Assembly (NCBI GenBank): GCA_002683825.1
Contig: NYUD01000011.1
Span: forward strand, 62,001 to 126,000
DNA: 64,000 nucleotides
Source of the DNA: Planctomycetota bacterium
Lineage (GTDB): Bacteria; Planctomycetota; UBA1135; GCA-002686595
Direction: 5' to 3'
Shown here piece by piece: positions 92 to 51,673 of the stretch. Every line of letters begins with the position of its first letter. Within the stretch, counting starts at the first letter, position 1. A program made the position numbers and the translations under genes. The notes beneath the pieces are model-generated. The model did not search any database and was not told the DNA's origin. It worked only from the letters and a program-made list of their open reading frames with translations.

Positions 92-239
92 GGCGGGAGC
101 GATTGTCTCCTTTGAAGCAAGACTTCGAAAGTGGAAAGGAACCTGGCGGTGGGTTGAGTCGCCCTAGAATGTGCGCTTCCCAGGAGACTGCCCCCCCCCC
201 CACTGTCCCGTGCCCCGTGGCACCGTAGCTCATCCCATC

Positions 240-2705
240 ATGCTCTCACTGACCACGATCCTGCTCCCTGCCATCGCCATCCTGCCGCAGACCGTGTCCC
301 CCACCGCGCAGGAGCTCCCCCCGGCTCCCCGGCTGGCTCTGATCGAGATCGACCTGGGCGCGGAAGGCCTGTCCCGGGCCCGGCTCCAGGCGGGCGGCTT
401 CGACGTCGTCCACCAGGATTCGAACGACGTCGTCCAGGTCCTGGTCGACAGCCAGGAGCAACAGCAGCTGGTCCGCAGCCGGGTGAACTACCGCATGCTG
501 CACGAAGACCTGGCGAGCTACTACGTGGAGCGCAACCAGGGCCAGCCGGCCTCCTCACCTCCCTCACAAGGCGCCTCGCTCGTCCCGCCCTTCGGAAGCG
601 GTTCCCAGGCGGGGTTCTACTCGTGGTCCGAGGTCGTATCCGTTCTGGACCAGATCACCGCCACCCACCCCAGCCTGACCACCGACAAGTTCAGCATCGG
701 CCAGACCCTCGAGGGTCGCGACATCTGGGCCGTCAAGATCTCCGACAACCCCGATACGGATGAGAACGAACCCGAGGTGCGCTTCGACGCCATGCACCAC
801 GCGCGCGAGCCTCAGAGCATGCAATGCACGCTATGGACGATGTTGTGCCTGCTGGAAAACTACGGCACGGACCCGCTGGCGACGTATCTGGTGAACGAGC
901 GGGAGATCTGGTTCATCCCCGTGGTCAATGCCGACGGATACGTCTACAACGAGAACACCAACCCCTCGGGCGGCGGGTTGTGGCGCAAGAACCGCCGCAA
1001 CAACGGCGGAGGCTCCTTCGGCGTCGACCTGAACCGCAACTACACGTTCCAGTGGGGCGTCGACAATGACGGCTCGAGTCCGGTCTCGAACTCGGAGACT
1101 TACCGCGGCACGGGCCCGACGAGCGAGCCCACCATCCAGGCGATGGAGGCCTTCATGGCCTCGCACAGCTTCGCGACCTCGCTCTCGGTGCACTCCTTTG
1201 GAAACCTGTGGCTGGAGCCCTGGGGCTACACCTCTTCCACACCGTCGCAGACGGCGCAGTTCGCCGAGTTGTCGGCCATGGCGACCGAGTTCAACAACTA
1301 CACCTCCGGTCCCGCTTCGGTCGTGCTCTATCTGGCCAACGGCGTGACCGTCGACCACGACCACGGCGCCCACGGAACCTATTCCTGGACGCCCGAGATC
1401 GGTTCCGACTCCGACGGCTTCTGGCCCCTGCAATCGCGCATCGTCCCGCTGGCCCAGGAGAACGAGCAGTCCTTCATGCGGACGGCCTGGGCAGCCGGCG
1501 CGTGTGTGCGCGCCATCGATACGACGGTGACGGAGATCGGTGACGGCGACGGCTTCTACGAGGCCGGCGAAAGCCTCCAGATCGTCCTCGACCTCCGCAA
1601 CAGCGGTCTGGAAGCCGCTGCCAGCGTCAGCGTCGGAGTCTCGAGTGCTTCGAGCGAGGTCAACGTCGCCGTTCCCAGCGCCAACCTCGGAAGCCTGGGC
1701 TCTTTCGCAAGCGCCGACAACTCCGCCCAACCGCTGGTGCTCGACATCCTTGCCGGCGCGAGCCCCGGAACCGCGGTCGACTACTCGGTCACACTCACCT
1801 ACCAGGGCTTCACGCAATCGGACGAGCGGACGCTTCTCATCGGGGAGCAGCGCACGATCATGACCGACAATGTCGAGGTCGATCTCGGCTGGGATATCAC
1901 GAACACGGCCTCGACGGGCCTGTGGGAATGGGGCGATCCGGTCGGCACCACCTCGAACGGTGAAGACTCCAACCCGGAAAACGACGTCTCGGTCCCCGGG
2001 GTGAACTGCTTTGCCACGGGCAACGGTTCCACCAGCGCGGGCGGCGATGACGTCGACGATGGCTCGACCATCCTGATCACGCCGGCCTTCGACCTGACGG
2101 GCGTCACGACGGCCCTTTTGACCTACCATCGCTGGTACGCCAACCTGGGCGCCGCCGACGACATGTTCACGGTCGACATCTCCGACAACGACGGCGCCAG
2201 CTGGCTGAACGTGGAGACGATCACGAACCAAAACGCCTGGAACGAGGTCAGCATCGACGTGAGCGACTACGTTTCGCTGACCGATGAAGTTCGCCTGCGC
2301 TTCACGGCGGAGGATGATCCCAACAACTCGCTGGTCGAGGCGGGCATCGACGAGCTTCGCGTCCAGACCTTCGATTCGGGATCGCTCTTGAATTTCTTTG
2401 GAAAGCCCCAGATCAGCACACAGATGGCCATGCATGTCGCGGGCAACGGGAGCGACTTCTACGCCGTCTACGGCTCGAACGCATCGGCTTTCATCATCAT
2501 CCCGGGGCTCGACGGAGCCTTACAGCTGGACCCCGGCGGCCTGTTCTCGCTCTTCTCGGGCGTGATTCCGGCCGGAGGACTGGCGCGCACGGTGTTCACG
2601 ATCCCGAACAACCCCGGCCTGGTTGGAAACACGTTCTACGTACAGGTCTTCACGGCGGGATCGGGACTACGCGCCTCGAACCTGGTCGACATCACCTTCG
2701 AGTGA
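240..2705 (+). CDS. Exported M14-family zinc carboxypeptidase with C-terminal beta-rich modules
   Basis: Secreted metallocarboxypeptidase of 821 aa that should remove C-terminal residues from peptides outside the cytoplasm. I start at the ATG 23 codons into the ORF because it begins a clean signal peptide (MLSLTTILLPAIAIL). The M14 signature is complete: HxxE in MHHAREP, the NRN substrate-binding residues, the third zinc ligand in SVHSFGN and the catalytic Glu in SWTPEIG. After the catalytic domain comes a CARDB-like segment (EIGDGDGFYEAGESL), a jelly-roll-like region (roughly residues 550-720) and a final module of about 105 residues ending FYVQVFTAGSGLRASN. That last module resembles the ends of the proteins at 48783-51032 and 51215-51673. 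Family call is secure; the substrate is unknown. Confidence 0.9.
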   Translation: MLSLTTILLPAIAILPQTVSPTAQELPPAPRLALIEIDLGAEGLSRARLQAGGFDVVHQDSNDVVQVLVDSQEQQQLVRSRVNYRMLHEDLASYYVERNQGQPASSPPSQGASLVPPFGSGSQAGFYSWSEVVSVLDQITATHPSLTTDKFSIGQTLEGRDIWAVKISDNPDTDENEPEVRFDAMHHAREPQSMQCTLWTMLCLLENYGTDPLATYLVNEREIWFIPVVNADGYVYNENTNPSGGGLWRKNRRNNGGGSFGVDLNRNYTFQWGVDNDGSSPVSNSETYRGTGPTSEPTIQAMEAFMASHSFATSLSVHSFGNLWLEPWGYTSSTPSQTAQFAELSAMATEFNNYTSGPASVVLYLANGVTVDHDHGAHGTYSWTPEIGSDSDGFWPLQSRIVPLAQENEQSFMRTAWAAGACVRAIDTTVTEIGDGDGFYEAGESLQIVLDLRNSGLEAAASVSVGVSSASSEVNVAVPSANLGSLGSFASADNSAQPLVLDILAGASPGTAVDYSVTLTYQGFTQSDERTLLIGEQRTIMTDNVEVDLGWDITNTASTGLWEWGDPVGTTSNGEDSNPENDVSVPGVNCFATGNGSTSAGGDDVDDGSTILITPAFDLTGVTTALLTYHRWYANLGAADDMFTVDISDNDGASWLNVETITNQNAWNEVSIDVSDYVSLTDEVRLRFTAEDDPNNSLVEAGIDELRVQTFDSGSLLNFFGKPQISTQMAMHVAGNGSDFYAVYGSNASAFIIIPGLDGALQLDPGGLFSLFSGVIPAGGLARTVFTIPNNPGLVGNTFYVQVFTAGSGLRASNLVDITFE

Positions 2706-4210: not shown

Positions 4211-6184
4211 TCAATGCCGCCCGAGGAGCTCTACGTCGAAGCTGAGGTCGGGAGTGTTCGGCACATCCTGGTGGACCTCGACCGCCAGAACGTTGATGCC
4301 GGTTCTCAGCTTGCGATGATCGATGCGTGACTCGAAGTACGTAGTTTCCCCGGCACCTACGATCCCGACACCCGCGGCGGTCGTCTCGTCCAGGTCGCCT
4401 AACGGCAAATTGTAGCGGTACACCTCCCGGCCGTTCAGAAACACCGCGGCCCCGTCGTCGCGAACCAACCTGAGAATCAGTGCATCCCATGCACCCGCGT
4501 CCGCCACGAAGAACTCGTGGCGGAAGTAGGTCGTCGGGTACTTGTCAGCCGGGTCGGGGCCGAAACCGACGACCGTGGCTTCGCCTCCGTCTCCATATCC
4601 CAGCTCGGCCGGACCGACGGGCCAGAGCGAATCATCGAAGCCCACCTGGGGCCAGCTCGGTCCGGGGAAGGTGCCGTCGTCAAAGAAGGACCACATCGCC
4701 CCCGGCGCAACGAGCACCTGCGAGTCGCGAATCGCCTGAAGGTTAGAAGCGAAGCTGATGTCGCTGCTGGTGCCCGAGACCTGGTGGATTTCCACGGCCA
4801 GAACGTTCAAGCCCGCGGTAAGGAGACCCGGGTCCAAGTCGTGCTCGTACAGCGAATCCTCGATGTTGTCGGCCACGGCGCTGAGCGCTGTGGTCGTGAT
4901 ACTCACCGGCCCCGCCGGCAGGTTCGTTCGAACGATCTCGGTCCCGTTCAGGTAGGCGATGGCGCCGTCGTCGCAAAGCAGGTCGAAACGCAGTTCCGTG
5001 ATTTCGCCGGGATTGGAAACCGTGAACGTGCGCCGGAAATGGGTCGTTATGTACTTGTTGTTGGGATCGGGGCCATAGTCGATGAGCGTGTCCTCATCGC
5101 CCTCCACATAGCCGAAGTGACCGGATCCGACCGCCCAGGTGCTGTCGTCGAAACTCGCACTCGTCCAGGCGGGTCCGGGATCCGTCCCGAGGTCGAGATA
5201 GCTCCACTCATCGGCATCCGCCGCCAGGAACTCGGGCTTCTCGCTGAAGTCGCGAGCGAACACCGAGTAGTCGTCGAACACGATGCCGTTCACGGACAAG
5301 AGCCGGATGCGGGCTCTGCGCACGTCGGCATCCACGACTTGCGCTCCGTGGGATCGCCGATAGCGCGATCGGCTGCCCGCGATGGAATCCGATTCGAAAC
5401 CATACAACACCGGGTTTCCGCCGATGCCGTTCACGAAGTACGGGATGCCATCGAGATCGAGCCTCTCGTACAGGTGGTCGTGGCCCGCGAAGACCGCGTC
5501 CGCACCCCAGGCAGCAAACGGCCATTGCATCTCGATGTCCGGTCCATGGCTGGACGACGATGAGTAGGGCGTGTGGTGCATGAACACGAACTTGAACGGC
5601 GCGCCGGAGGACTTCAGGCCGTTCTCGAGCCACTGTCCCTGGATCGAGTCCTCAGTGACCCCGTCCGGTTCGTCGGAATCACTGTCGACCACGAAGGCGT
5701 GCACGGGCCATCTGAGAACGTCGTAGTAGCGCTCGTTGCCCGGCAGAGAGAAGTACGCCAGATAGGGAAAAGCGCCCGGCGTATGCCAATCATGGTTCCC
5801 CAGCGCCGGAAAGAACCGATTCTCATCCGCACCGAAGCCATGGATCCCGAAGTAGGGAGCGATGAAGTCGTGATAGTACTGGCCGACGTTTTCGTCGATG
5901 GTCGCCGCTGTCCCATCGGGGTAGTTGTTGTCCCCCACGGTGAAGATCAGATCCGGGTCCATCCCCAGCACCAGGGCGGCAACCGCCGCCTCGGCCGGCC
6001 CCGCCAGACCGTAGTCACCGAGGACCGTAAAGCGAACCGAGCTGTCGCTCTCGATCGTGCGGGGCGGTGCCGAACCCGGCGGGCCGCCGGGTCGACCCAC
6101 CGTCTGGGAGGAGGCGGGGTTGAGCCCCGGCACGGAAAGAAGGGCCGCGACGGCGAGGACGAGATATCGGAACACGGAGCGCAT
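4211..6184 (-). CDS. Exported purple-acid-phosphatase-like metallophosphoesterase with two repeated modules
   Basis: Secreted metallophosphoesterase, 657 aa from the chosen ATG (an in-frame ATG three codons earlier is equally possible). Signal peptide MRSVFRYLVLAVAALLSVPG. The calcineurin-type motifs run in order: VLGDYG, GDNNYPDG, GNHDWH, the HHTPYS block and GHDHLYERL, which together bind the dinuclear metal centre. The C-terminal half holds two copies of a jelly-roll-like module of about 165 residues. Each has PGPxW, FDDSxWxVG, FGPDP or YGPDP, KYxTTxFR, a DDGAxxxLNG segment and a final NVLAVEIHQ or NVLAVEVHQ. These look like galactose-binding-fold modules that attach the enzyme to a polymer or surface. 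Divergent to nothing close; converges with the upstream sulfatase gene. Confidence 0.87.
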   Translation of the reverse strand: MRSVFRYLVLAVAALLSVPGLNPASSQTVGRPGGPPGSAPPRTIESDSSVRFTVLGDYGLAGPAEAAVAALVLGMDPDLIFTVGDNNYPDGTAATIDENVGQYYHDFIAPYFGIHGFGADENRFFPALGNHDWHTPGAFPYLAYFSLPGNERYYDVLRWPVHAFVVDSDSDEPDGVTEDSIQGQWLENGLKSSGAPFKFVFMHHTPYSSSSSHGPDIEMQWPFAAWGADAVFAGHDHLYERLDLDGIPYFVNGIGGNPVLYGFESDSIAGSRSRYRRSHGAQVVDADVRRARIRLLSVNGIVFDDYSVFARDFSEKPEFLAADADEWSYLDLGTDPGPAWTSASFDDSTWAVGSGHFGYVEGDEDTLIDYGPDPNNKYITTHFRRTFTVSNPGEITELRFDLLCDDGAIAYLNGTEIVRTNLPAGPVSITTTALSAVADNIEDSLYEHDLDPGLLTAGLNVLAVEIHQVSGTSSDISFASNLQAIRDSQVLVAPGAMWSFFDDGTFPGPSWPQVGFDDSLWPVGPAELGYGDGGEATVVGFGPDPADKYPTTYFRHEFFVADAGAWDALILRLVRDDGAAVFLNGREVYRYNLPLGDLDETTAAGVGIVGAGETTYFESRIDHRKLRTGINVLAVEVHQDVPNTPDLSFDVELLGRH

Positions 6185-6364
6185 GTCGATCATCCTGGAT
6201 GGTGTGTTCCCCGTCCGACGAGGGGGCGGACTCATCTTACCCAATTTTTTTATGCCGATACGCTGCGGGAGGAGGGTCTCGGGGAAACCGGTTGCCCAGG
6301 TGGCTCTCACGGTTCATCGAAGAGTCCGATGGAGCCCTGCCCGTCGGTGCCGTCGAGAGAACCG

Positions 6365-48620: not shown

Positions 48621-48782
48621 ACGCGCAAAGCTTTCGCACACCGCGCGATCCCGGGAGAAGCGCTTTCCCGGCGCGATGACCACTCACTGTAAACACGACA
48701 GCAAGCCACCGGGTGGCCAGGCCACGCCCTCGGAGGGAGCCTATAGTTGAGAGTGGGACCTCCCTTCGCTGCGCTCGCAACC

Positions 48783-51032
48783 ATGCATCGACAACCCAAG
48801 GGCCGCTTCGCAATCGCTCTTCTGTTCTCCCTCGGCACGGCCTCCATCACCGTCGCTCAGGAAACGATTCCGAACCGGATCTTCCCCTCCAACTCCAAAC
48901 CGATCCTCTACGCTCCACCCGAGCGTGTAGCTGCCGGTACGCCCGCGCCCGAACACTACGTCAATGTCTTTCTGCCGCCCGGCACGCCACCCACCGCGGG
49001 TTGGCCGGTCGTGGTCACCACGGGCTTCGGCGGAGGCATCGCGACGCCTCCCCAGCGACTGCTCGGCAGGATCGGCCCAACCGCGGCCCTGCACAGGCTG
49101 CTCGGCGCGGGGATCGCGGTCGTCTCCTACGGAGTACCCGGAGTCGGTGGCGGTCGCGGGCTCTGGTATCCACCGGGGCACCCCAGCGGCAGGTACGAGT
49201 CCTTCGATCCGTCGAACGACAATCCGGAGAAGTCCGGCGTGTGGGCGGTGCAGTGGGTGCGCAACCAGACCGAGTTTCCCCTCGATCTATCGAACATGGG
49301 ATTGCGCGGCTCCTCCGGTGGAGCGGTCCTGGCTGTGCGCACCGCAATGGGGCCAAACCGTGCGTCCATGGACGGCTCGGCACAGCTGCAAACCGAGACA
49401 CGCGTCAAGGCGATCCTCGCGATCCAGCCGCCGACCTCGATCTTCGCCCTGGAACAGGGCCCGGAGCTCACGCTCGGTCTTCCGACACACCTGGAACAGG
49501 CGGCGAACCCCGGTTCCGCCGCCAACATCCTCGATCAGGTCGACCACGAGTTGCAAAAGGACTACAGCCTCATTCGCACCGCCTTCGAAAGCGCGGAGGC
49601 TCGAGCGAACAACGGAGAACAGCGCATCTGCCTGGTCTTCGCGGACCCCGTGCTCCAAGTCGCAGATCAGCCCGCGACGATGGCCCTGGATGGAACGGGC
49701 TTCCCCCTGCTCTACGACGCGATCAATCAGCCTTTCCAGCACGACGGCTGGTTCGGCTACATCTTCTTCAAGAGTTTGCTTGAGCTATCCCCCACGGCAG
49801 AGATGTTCCATCGGGCGAACTCGGTGTTCGCGATGCGCCTCGATTACGCCCTGGCACCACCGCTCGACTACCACACCACCACGTTTAGTGGAGCCTTCAA
49901 CGGCACAGAAGCCAACGACATCGGGCACCTCTGGCTGGTGTCCCAGTTGATCGGTGACGACGGGGGCGTCGATCCGCCTCCCCCCCCGCCGCCGCCCGCC
50001 GCGGGAGCTCTCGCGGATGCGAGCTTCGAGGCGCAAACCGCCGGAACGATGCCTGTCGATCCCTGGGGCGCATTCGGCGCCGGAAGTCAAAGCGTGCTTT
50101 CGCAGGGAACCGACACGGAAGTCGGCCTGCCGAGCGACGGTCTCTTGTGGCTCGAGCTCGATGCAAACGGCACATCGGGGACGACTCCGCCAACCAACCC
50201 CTCAGACGTGACACAACCCGCGCTCGGCGGCTCCGGAGTTCAACAAGCATTCCTGTTCGACCCCACGCAAACCATGCTCCAGTTCGAAGCGGCGTTCGCA
50301 CCGGCGGACATCTCCTCGGCTGCACGCAACGATTGGATGAGCGTGGACATCAGCGATGGTTCGACCACCTGGAACCTCTTTTTTGCGGATACGTTTTCCC
50401 CACTGCCGATGACCTCGACGCGCACGGGCGGAGCGATGACGGCGGTGCGCACGATGACCGTGGACACGGCCGTGCTCTTCCCGCTCGCGGATGGAGCGAC
50501 ACCCCTCTTGCTCTCCGCCCAGGTTGGCAACTTCGGCGACGGCCTGCGTCCATCGATCGGCTACGTCGATGGGTTTCGGCTGATGGCAGAAGCCAACGTC
50601 CGGCCCTTTGGATGCGGGATCAACCCCTCCGGCAGCCTGCTCATCCTGAGCGGCCGACCGGAGCTGGGCCAAACGATGACCTTCGGCGTGGACAATCCCC
50701 TGGGCACCCAGGCAGCCGGCGCCATTCCCGTGATCGCCATGTCGACGGTTCCCGCGCGTGGCTTCCCTTGCGGAATACAACGTTCGGGCTACGGCATGGC
50801 GGGTGACACCGGCGAGCTCCTGTTCAACCCCGCGCGGCTTTTGATGCCCTTCGTCCTGGGACTTCCCTGGCAAGGTCCCGCCAATCCGGCCCCCGTCAGC
50901 GTGCCCATTCCCATCGATCCTGTCCTGGCGGGGGTCCATGCCTTCGTCCAGGGGGTGCTCTATGACCCCTCAGCCCCGTCAGGCAGCCGGGTGAAACTGG
51001 GCGAGGCCGTCGAGCTCACGCTCAGCCTCTGA
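48783..51032 (+). CDS. Exported modular esterase: alpha/beta hydrolase, jelly-roll module, C-terminal surface module
   Basis: Secreted protein of 749 aa, start at MHRQPKGRFAIALLFSLG after the more upstream in-frame ATG. The first 400 residues form an alpha/beta hydrolase with TTGFGGGIATP near the oxyanion hole and the elbow LRGSSGGAVLAV. A run of eight prolines (DPPPPPPPPAAG) links to a carbohydrate-binding-like jelly roll (LADASFEAQTAGTMP, GLLWLELDANGTSG). The final 130 residues (LLILSGRPELGQTMTFGV, then PIPIDPVLAGVHAFVQGVL) look like the same module as the carboxypeptidase end and the 152-aa protein just downstream. Substrate unknown, probably a polymer ester. Confidence 0.82.
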   Translation: MHRQPKGRFAIALLFSLGTASITVAQETIPNRIFPSNSKPILYAPPERVAAGTPAPEHYVNVFLPPGTPPTAGWPVVVTTGFGGGIATPPQRLLGRIGPTAALHRLLGAGIAVVSYGVPGVGGGRGLWYPPGHPSGRYESFDPSNDNPEKSGVWAVQWVRNQTEFPLDLSNMGLRGSSGGAVLAVRTAMGPNRASMDGSAQLQTETRVKAILAIQPPTSIFALEQGPELTLGLPTHLEQAANPGSAANILDQVDHELQKDYSLIRTAFESAEARANNGEQRICLVFADPVLQVADQPATMALDGTGFPLLYDAINQPFQHDGWFGYIFFKSLLELSPTAEMFHRANSVFAMRLDYALAPPLDYHTTTFSGAFNGTEANDIGHLWLVSQLIGDDGGVDPPPPPPPPAAGALADASFEAQTAGTMPVDPWGAFGAGSQSVLSQGTDTEVGLPSDGLLWLELDANGTSGTTPPTNPSDVTQPALGGSGVQQAFLFDPTQTMLQFEAAFAPADISSAARNDWMSVDISDGSTTWNLFFADTFSPLPMTSTRTGGAMTAVRTMTVDTAVLFPLADGATPLLLSAQVGNFGDGLRPSIGYVDGFRLMAEANVRPFGCGINPSGSLLILSGRPELGQTMTFGVDNPLGTQAAGAIPVIAMSTVPARGFPCGIQRSGYGMAGDTGELLFNPARLLMPFVLGLPWQGPANPAPVSVPIPIDPVLAGVHAFVQGVLYDPSAPSGSRVKLGEAVELTLSL

Positions 51033-51214: not shown

Positions 51215-51673
51215 ATGAAGAAACCGGCGCGGACCCGAAAAGCCTCCTTTGAGAGTTCCTTGATGCAGGCGTCCGGCCGTGTTCTCGGTAACAAGCCGCG
51301 AGAGACCCGTGAGCTGGGGGCGATCGCCGTCCCGCTTCTCGAGGTATCGACCGAGGTCAACCCCGGCGGCATCGTGAAGATCTCCCTGAAGGGCCGCGCC
51401 GACGAGCGCTTCCTGATCCTGGCGGCGCCCCACCCGGGGCCGATGCAACTCGGAAACTTCCCCATTCCCGTGGATCTCGGAAACCGGGAAGAAGACCTCA
51501 TCCTGGCCCTCGATGGGACCCTGGATTCCTCGGGGAAGACCCTCAGGAAGCTCGAGGTTCCCGATGACCCGCTCCTGCCCGGCAGGCCGCTGTACTGGCA
51601 GGCCCTGCTCTTTTCGGCCCAGGGCGTGGCGAAGACGAATCTGGCCCAGACGTTTGTCTGGGAACGGGCCTAG
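51215..51673 (+). CDS. Stand-alone copy of the C-terminal module
   Basis: Protein of 152 aa from MKKPARTRKASFESS, 57 codons into the ORF; the start is uncertain and no signal peptide is evident. From about residue 40 it reads as the module seen at the ends of the two big exported hydrolases: LLEVSTEVNPGGIVKISL, DGTLDSSGKTL and LEVPDDPLLPGRPLYWQALL, the last matching IPNNPGLVGNTFYVQ in the carboxypeptidase. Function unknown; perhaps a binding or sorting domain working alone. Confidence 0.6.
   Translation: MKKPARTRKASFESSLMQASGRVLGNKPRETRELGAIAVPLLEVSTEVNPGGIVKISLKGRADERFLILAAPHPGPMQLGNFPIPVDLGNREEDLILALDGTLDSSGKTLRKLEVPDDPLLPGRPLYWQALLFSAQGVAKTNLAQTFVWERA

Follow-up and report, generated by a model that had tools for sequence, protein, structure and literature searches.

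What is the module that ends an exported carboxypeptidase in this planctomycete, and what does it do for the proteins that carry it? The first-pass annotation of the 64,000-nucleotide stretch of DNA analyzed here (the window) had described a C-terminal module at 2385-2705, recurring in three exported proteins, and had read it as a lineage-specific surface, sorting or binding domain. The answer that we favor, at a probability of roughly 0.55, is a lineage-specific C-terminal domain for surface retention or sorting, which would be read by a candidate receptor. The relevant features of the window are the following:

171..2705, + strand: host gene 1, exported zinc carboxypeptidase, with Pfam Peptidase_M14 at residues 156-433, then a weak choice-of-anchor J match, then the module
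2385..2702, + strand: module copy 1, in the M14 carboxypeptidase; profile match
48747..51032, + strand: host gene 2, exported alpha/beta-hydrolase (esterase), with weak matches of the BD-FAE and extracellular PHA-depolymerase-like kinds, and a signal peptide that begins near 48783
50610..51026, + strand: module copy 2, in the esterase; profile match
51215..51673, + strand: host gene 3, a 152-aa stand-alone copy without signal peptide; GC3 favors coding from ATG 51215
51335..51661, + strand: module copy 3, most of the small protein; profile match, model and single-sequence search

Extent of the module family

The coordinates of the first copy were right: the profile match covers 2385-2702 and ends at the last residue of the carboxypeptidase. 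As a single query, the carboxypeptidase end led to 26 places in the window's own genome, nearly all with the same pattern and most of them where a long open frame ends; one of the 26 (C3:2475) is a chance match, and perhaps a few others are too. In a seed alignment of 27 module copies, P74 and Q87 do not vary. The profile made from it reports 107 places with E <=1 across the 5.4 Mb genome, of which about 100 are credible, so that the module is not limited to three proteins. Two ORFs of this genome contain two copies each. The module is about 105-140 residues long and its family is split into many diverged subfamilies. G, P, N and Q make up most of the conserved columns, and the blocks picked out in the first reading (G-x-P, L-D/N-P, (I/V)P-x-(D/N)P-x-L-x-G and a Q-containing strand) coincide with these columns.

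Circularity was avoided with a leave-out HMM, built from 88 copies that all lie outside the window and run on six-frame translations of the window. It recovers all three of the proteins that had been said to share the module, the esterase at E 6e-14, the carboxypeptidase at E 4e-13 and the protein at 51215-51673 at E 6e-5 (best domain 2e-4), and gives no fourth significant match in the six frames (next E = 0.37). The likeness among the three proteins is real and not due to chance. An HMM search of Planctomycetota, which had been proposed as a check, yielded many further members.

The three copies differ in character. In the carboxypeptidase, the weak choice-of-anchor J match (residues 626-730) lies directly N-terminal of the module. 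The orthologue in Planctomycetota isolate OFTM43 also has a module that runs to the last residue, with an identity of 33% as against 68% for the catalytic domain; in this comparison, the module slot appears to be conserved more than the module sequence. The esterase carries the module in a longer form, that of a subfamily (GCGxNPxGSL ... FGVDNPLGTQ ... PCG) to which at least two other copies of the same genome (C94_17879 and C62_13276) belong as well. A related form of this subfamily is present in another genome.

For the small third protein, ATG 51215 is the most likely start codon, as GC3 is 0.82 downstream of it and 0.65 upstream. Its N-terminus then reads MKKPARTRKASF, and no signal peptide is found there. 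The earlier description of three exported proteins therefore stands for the carboxypeptidase and the esterase, but not for this stand-alone copy. As a lone query, the protein matches long open frames of relatives (185-2,014 aa) with E-values between 4e-6 and 9e-4, in most cases through its module part, and we found no full-length relative among 40 genomes. Judged by its sequence, it is a diverged member of the family; possible readings are a binder in the cytoplasm, a gene in decay or a fragment. Its gene lies 183 bases downstream of the esterase gene, on the same strand.

The family appears to lack a name. None of 76 module members matches any Pfam family, and a search of the same members against NCBIfam gave no named family and a single weak match, to an unrelated repeat. 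The module yielded chance matches only in a sequence search of the PDB, and in papers we found no description of such a domain. As both of the main libraries leave this large family unnamed, many planctomycete surface enzymes are annotated only in part.

Fold, position and cargo

Structure prediction assigns the module a beta-sandwich fold with good confidence. An AlphaFold model of the carboxypeptidase module, computed with a 76-copy alignment, has a pLDDT of 89 and shows an all-beta, Ig-like sandwich, and a model of the third protein from a smaller alignment (pLDDT 75) has the same strand order. The two models find overlapping Ig-like structures in the PDB, where no match of the carboxypeptidase-module model is better than E 0.001, and the structural likeness is generic Ig-like. 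Since the models share alignment rows, the agreement between them cannot count as independent of what the sequences show. Unrelated folds would have spoken against a common module; the two copies modeled, carboxypeptidase and third, share both strand order and fold matches.

Retention of the fold despite low sequence identity, together with its generic Ig-like similarity, would also suit a purely structural C-terminal cap that stabilizes secreted proteins without serving in recognition, and so would the existence of a stand-alone copy without signal peptide. We regard such a cap as improbable, for a (near-)invariant pattern of Q, P, G and N persists across very different cargo, and the presence of about 90 copies in some genomes as against 0-6 in several members of the same family suggests a lineage-favored trait rather than a general stabilizer.

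The module is C-terminal in most of its bearers. In the window's own genome, 76 of 101 copies end no more than 4 residues from the stop, 7 end within 25 residues, and 18 lie further inside or at the N-terminal end. The position is even stricter in 38 other genomes, where 39 of 40 copies end no more than 5 residues from the stop. After 9 of the 18 clearly internal copies comes a PKD domain, which in most of these proteins is the only one and forms the C-terminal end.

Most bearers also start like exported proteins. A signal-peptide-like start was found in 69 of the 92 own-genome bearers with complete starts (about 75%), compared with 19 of the 42 genes of the window (p 0.0015, Fisher test), by a home-made and lenient score that took the best start within the first 160 codons in both sets alike. 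Among bearers from relatives, 30 of 36 have such a start. The window also encodes, at 4211-6310 on the minus strand, a predicted exported metallophosphatase with two C-terminal tandem galactose-binding-like repeats and, as judged by reading, no module.

The cargo is diverse. The parts N-terminal of the module, taken from 99 proteins, match 64 Pfam families, with PKD (14) and FG-GAP (9) among them. Protease cargo includes M14, M10/M12/M43 (matrixin and other metalloproteases), S8 subtilases and trypsin-like enzymes; there are also glucose/sorbosone dehydrogenases (GSDH), MauG, endonuclease I, PHA depolymerase-like and beta-propeller proteins. We are thus dealing with a family of C-terminal modules, mostly behind signal-peptide-like starts, on unrelated enzymes as well as on beta-propeller and FG-GAP proteins. 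NCBIfam places some of the cargo in the choice-of-anchor B and I families and identifies relatives of myxosortase-dependent proteases. Members of a choice-of-anchor family vary in their C-terminal anchoring tag from one bacterium to another, and it is because these tags differ that a module in the same slot is suggestive.

The main rival of the retention or sorting reading is a non-catalytic binding domain, for polysaccharide or matrix for example, that is C-terminal by habit like many carbohydrate-binding modules and retains its bearers only as a by-product. A beta-sandwich on extracellular enzymes, split into many diverged subfamilies as ligand-binding modules are, and sometimes placed internally ahead of PKD domains, would fit this description. 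A binding module would, however, be expected at either end of its bearers, so that 39 of 40 terminal copies in relatives is stricter than anticipated; moreover, the 76 members have no match to a Pfam carbohydrate-binding family, and the preponderance of G, P, N and Q in the conserved columns likewise speaks against it. On balance we consider a binding domain unlikely, if the strongest of the alternatives to retention or sorting.

Known C-terminal sorting tags

In type IX secretion systems (T9SSs), the C-terminal domain (CTD) is an Ig-like beta-sandwich at the end of unrelated Sec-exported proteins, with the export signal in its last strands (PMC4804311). The module resembles this CTD (Por_Secre_tail) in being C-terminal, in its Ig-like sandwich and in the Sec signal peptide at the front of its bearers (PMC4804311); the model with pLDDT 89, the Ig-like PDB matches and the terminal position all place it among C-terminal Ig-like beta-sandwiches. 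It differs in length, at about 105-140 residues compared with 73 for the crystallized T9SS CTD, and in its host phylum, Planctomycetota. That it is a true T9SS CTD, or another sorting tag already known, is very improbable in spite of the same general design, since neither Pfam nor NCBIfam gives any of the 76 members a match to the Por_Secre_tail profile or to another tag of C-terminal type. The T9SS translocon protein SprA gave no match in the window's own genome or in 244 Planctomycetota either, in a search whose control genomes were silent too. PorU-type C25 peptidases do not track the module, being present in 31 of 58 genomes with it and in 113 of 236 without it (p 0.47); the window's own genome has one C25 protein.

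LPXTG, PEP-CTERM, GlyGly-CTERM and MYXO-CTERM-type tails consist of a motif, a membrane helix and a basic cluster (PMC3237569). Like them, the module is a C-terminal region present in many copies on unrelated exported proteins, and there is overlap in cargo, namely choice-of-anchor B, I and (weakly) J proteins and the relatives of myxosortase-dependent proteases. Unlike them, it is a folded domain with neither a membrane helix nor a basic tail. None of 116 C-terminal bearers has a C-terminal membrane helix (a 19-residue segment with mean KD >=1.8 in the last 45 residues), and 78 of the 116 have no K or R among their last 10 residues. This architecture rules out a membrane-helix tag as the identity of the module and counts against the known sorting tags as a group. 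Exosortase does not track the module (24 of 58 genomes with it, 90 of 236 without it, p 0.65), and no PEP-CTERM proteins were found above the cut-off in the window's own genome. One short exosortase-like match (model positions 130-252) occurs in this genome, at 53256-53609 of contig C92.

Surface proteins also contain PKD and further Ig-like domains, which are beta-sandwiches as well, and PKD often adjoins the module. In contrast to these domains, the module is mostly terminal and single-copy, and it matches no Pfam model for PKD or any other Ig-like domain.

Mechanism, distribution and consequences

Terminal position, unrelated exported cargoes and a folded sandwich together make up the design of the T9SS CTD, although membership in that family is not supported and a membrane-helix tag is ruled out, and it is for this reason that we favor a retention or sorting domain. 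In such a model, bearers would be exported by Sec and would carry the module at their free C-terminus. A putative envelope component would then recognize the folded module, and this recognition would keep the bearer at, or deliver it to, the cell surface or an outer layer. The model supposes that the module acts after export, that recognition depends on its position at the end, and that bearers end up retained at or sorted to the surface instead of binding a ligand in some other way, all of which we infer. Against it speak that neither exosortase nor C25 tracks the module and no cognate machinery was found, the internal or N-terminal copies (18 of 101), the two ORFs with two copies each, the third copy in the window, whose protein lacks a signal peptide, and the generic Ig-like fold similarity. 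It is possible, but doubtful, that the module is the tag of an undescribed Planctomycetota system for sorting or outer-surface delivery, T9SS-like in its use of a folded C-terminal beta-sandwich, with unrelated machinery and up to about 100 cargo proteins per genome.

Of 31 genomes searched, which comprise that of the window and those of 30 relatives, 30 carry the module, each in 1 to 112 copies (E 1e-5). When 294 Planctomycetota genomes were sampled, with at most 15 candidates scored in each, so that copy numbers are to be read as "at least", the module was present in 58; 28 of these belong to the window's order, in which no sampled member (28 members) was seen without it, and 30 belong to families scattered elsewhere in the phylum. 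Plasmid records, a weak probe of the distribution outside Planctomycetota, gave no match. The lineage-specific, export-related side of the original proposal is therefore upheld by about 100 copies for which neither Pfam nor NCBIfam has a name; most are terminal and most follow a signal peptide, and the family extends through one order and scattered families of the phylum. We found neither a machinery nor a ligand that would decide between a surface, a sorting and a binding role.

If the module is a sorting or retention tag, about 100 proteins of one planctomycete become assignable to the cell surface at once, and the machinery that reads it can be searched for by comparing module-rich with module-poor genomes. 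Genomes of the same family hold anywhere between 0 or 1 copies and about 90, several members having 0-6, a spread that would suit phylogenetic profiling for a partner.
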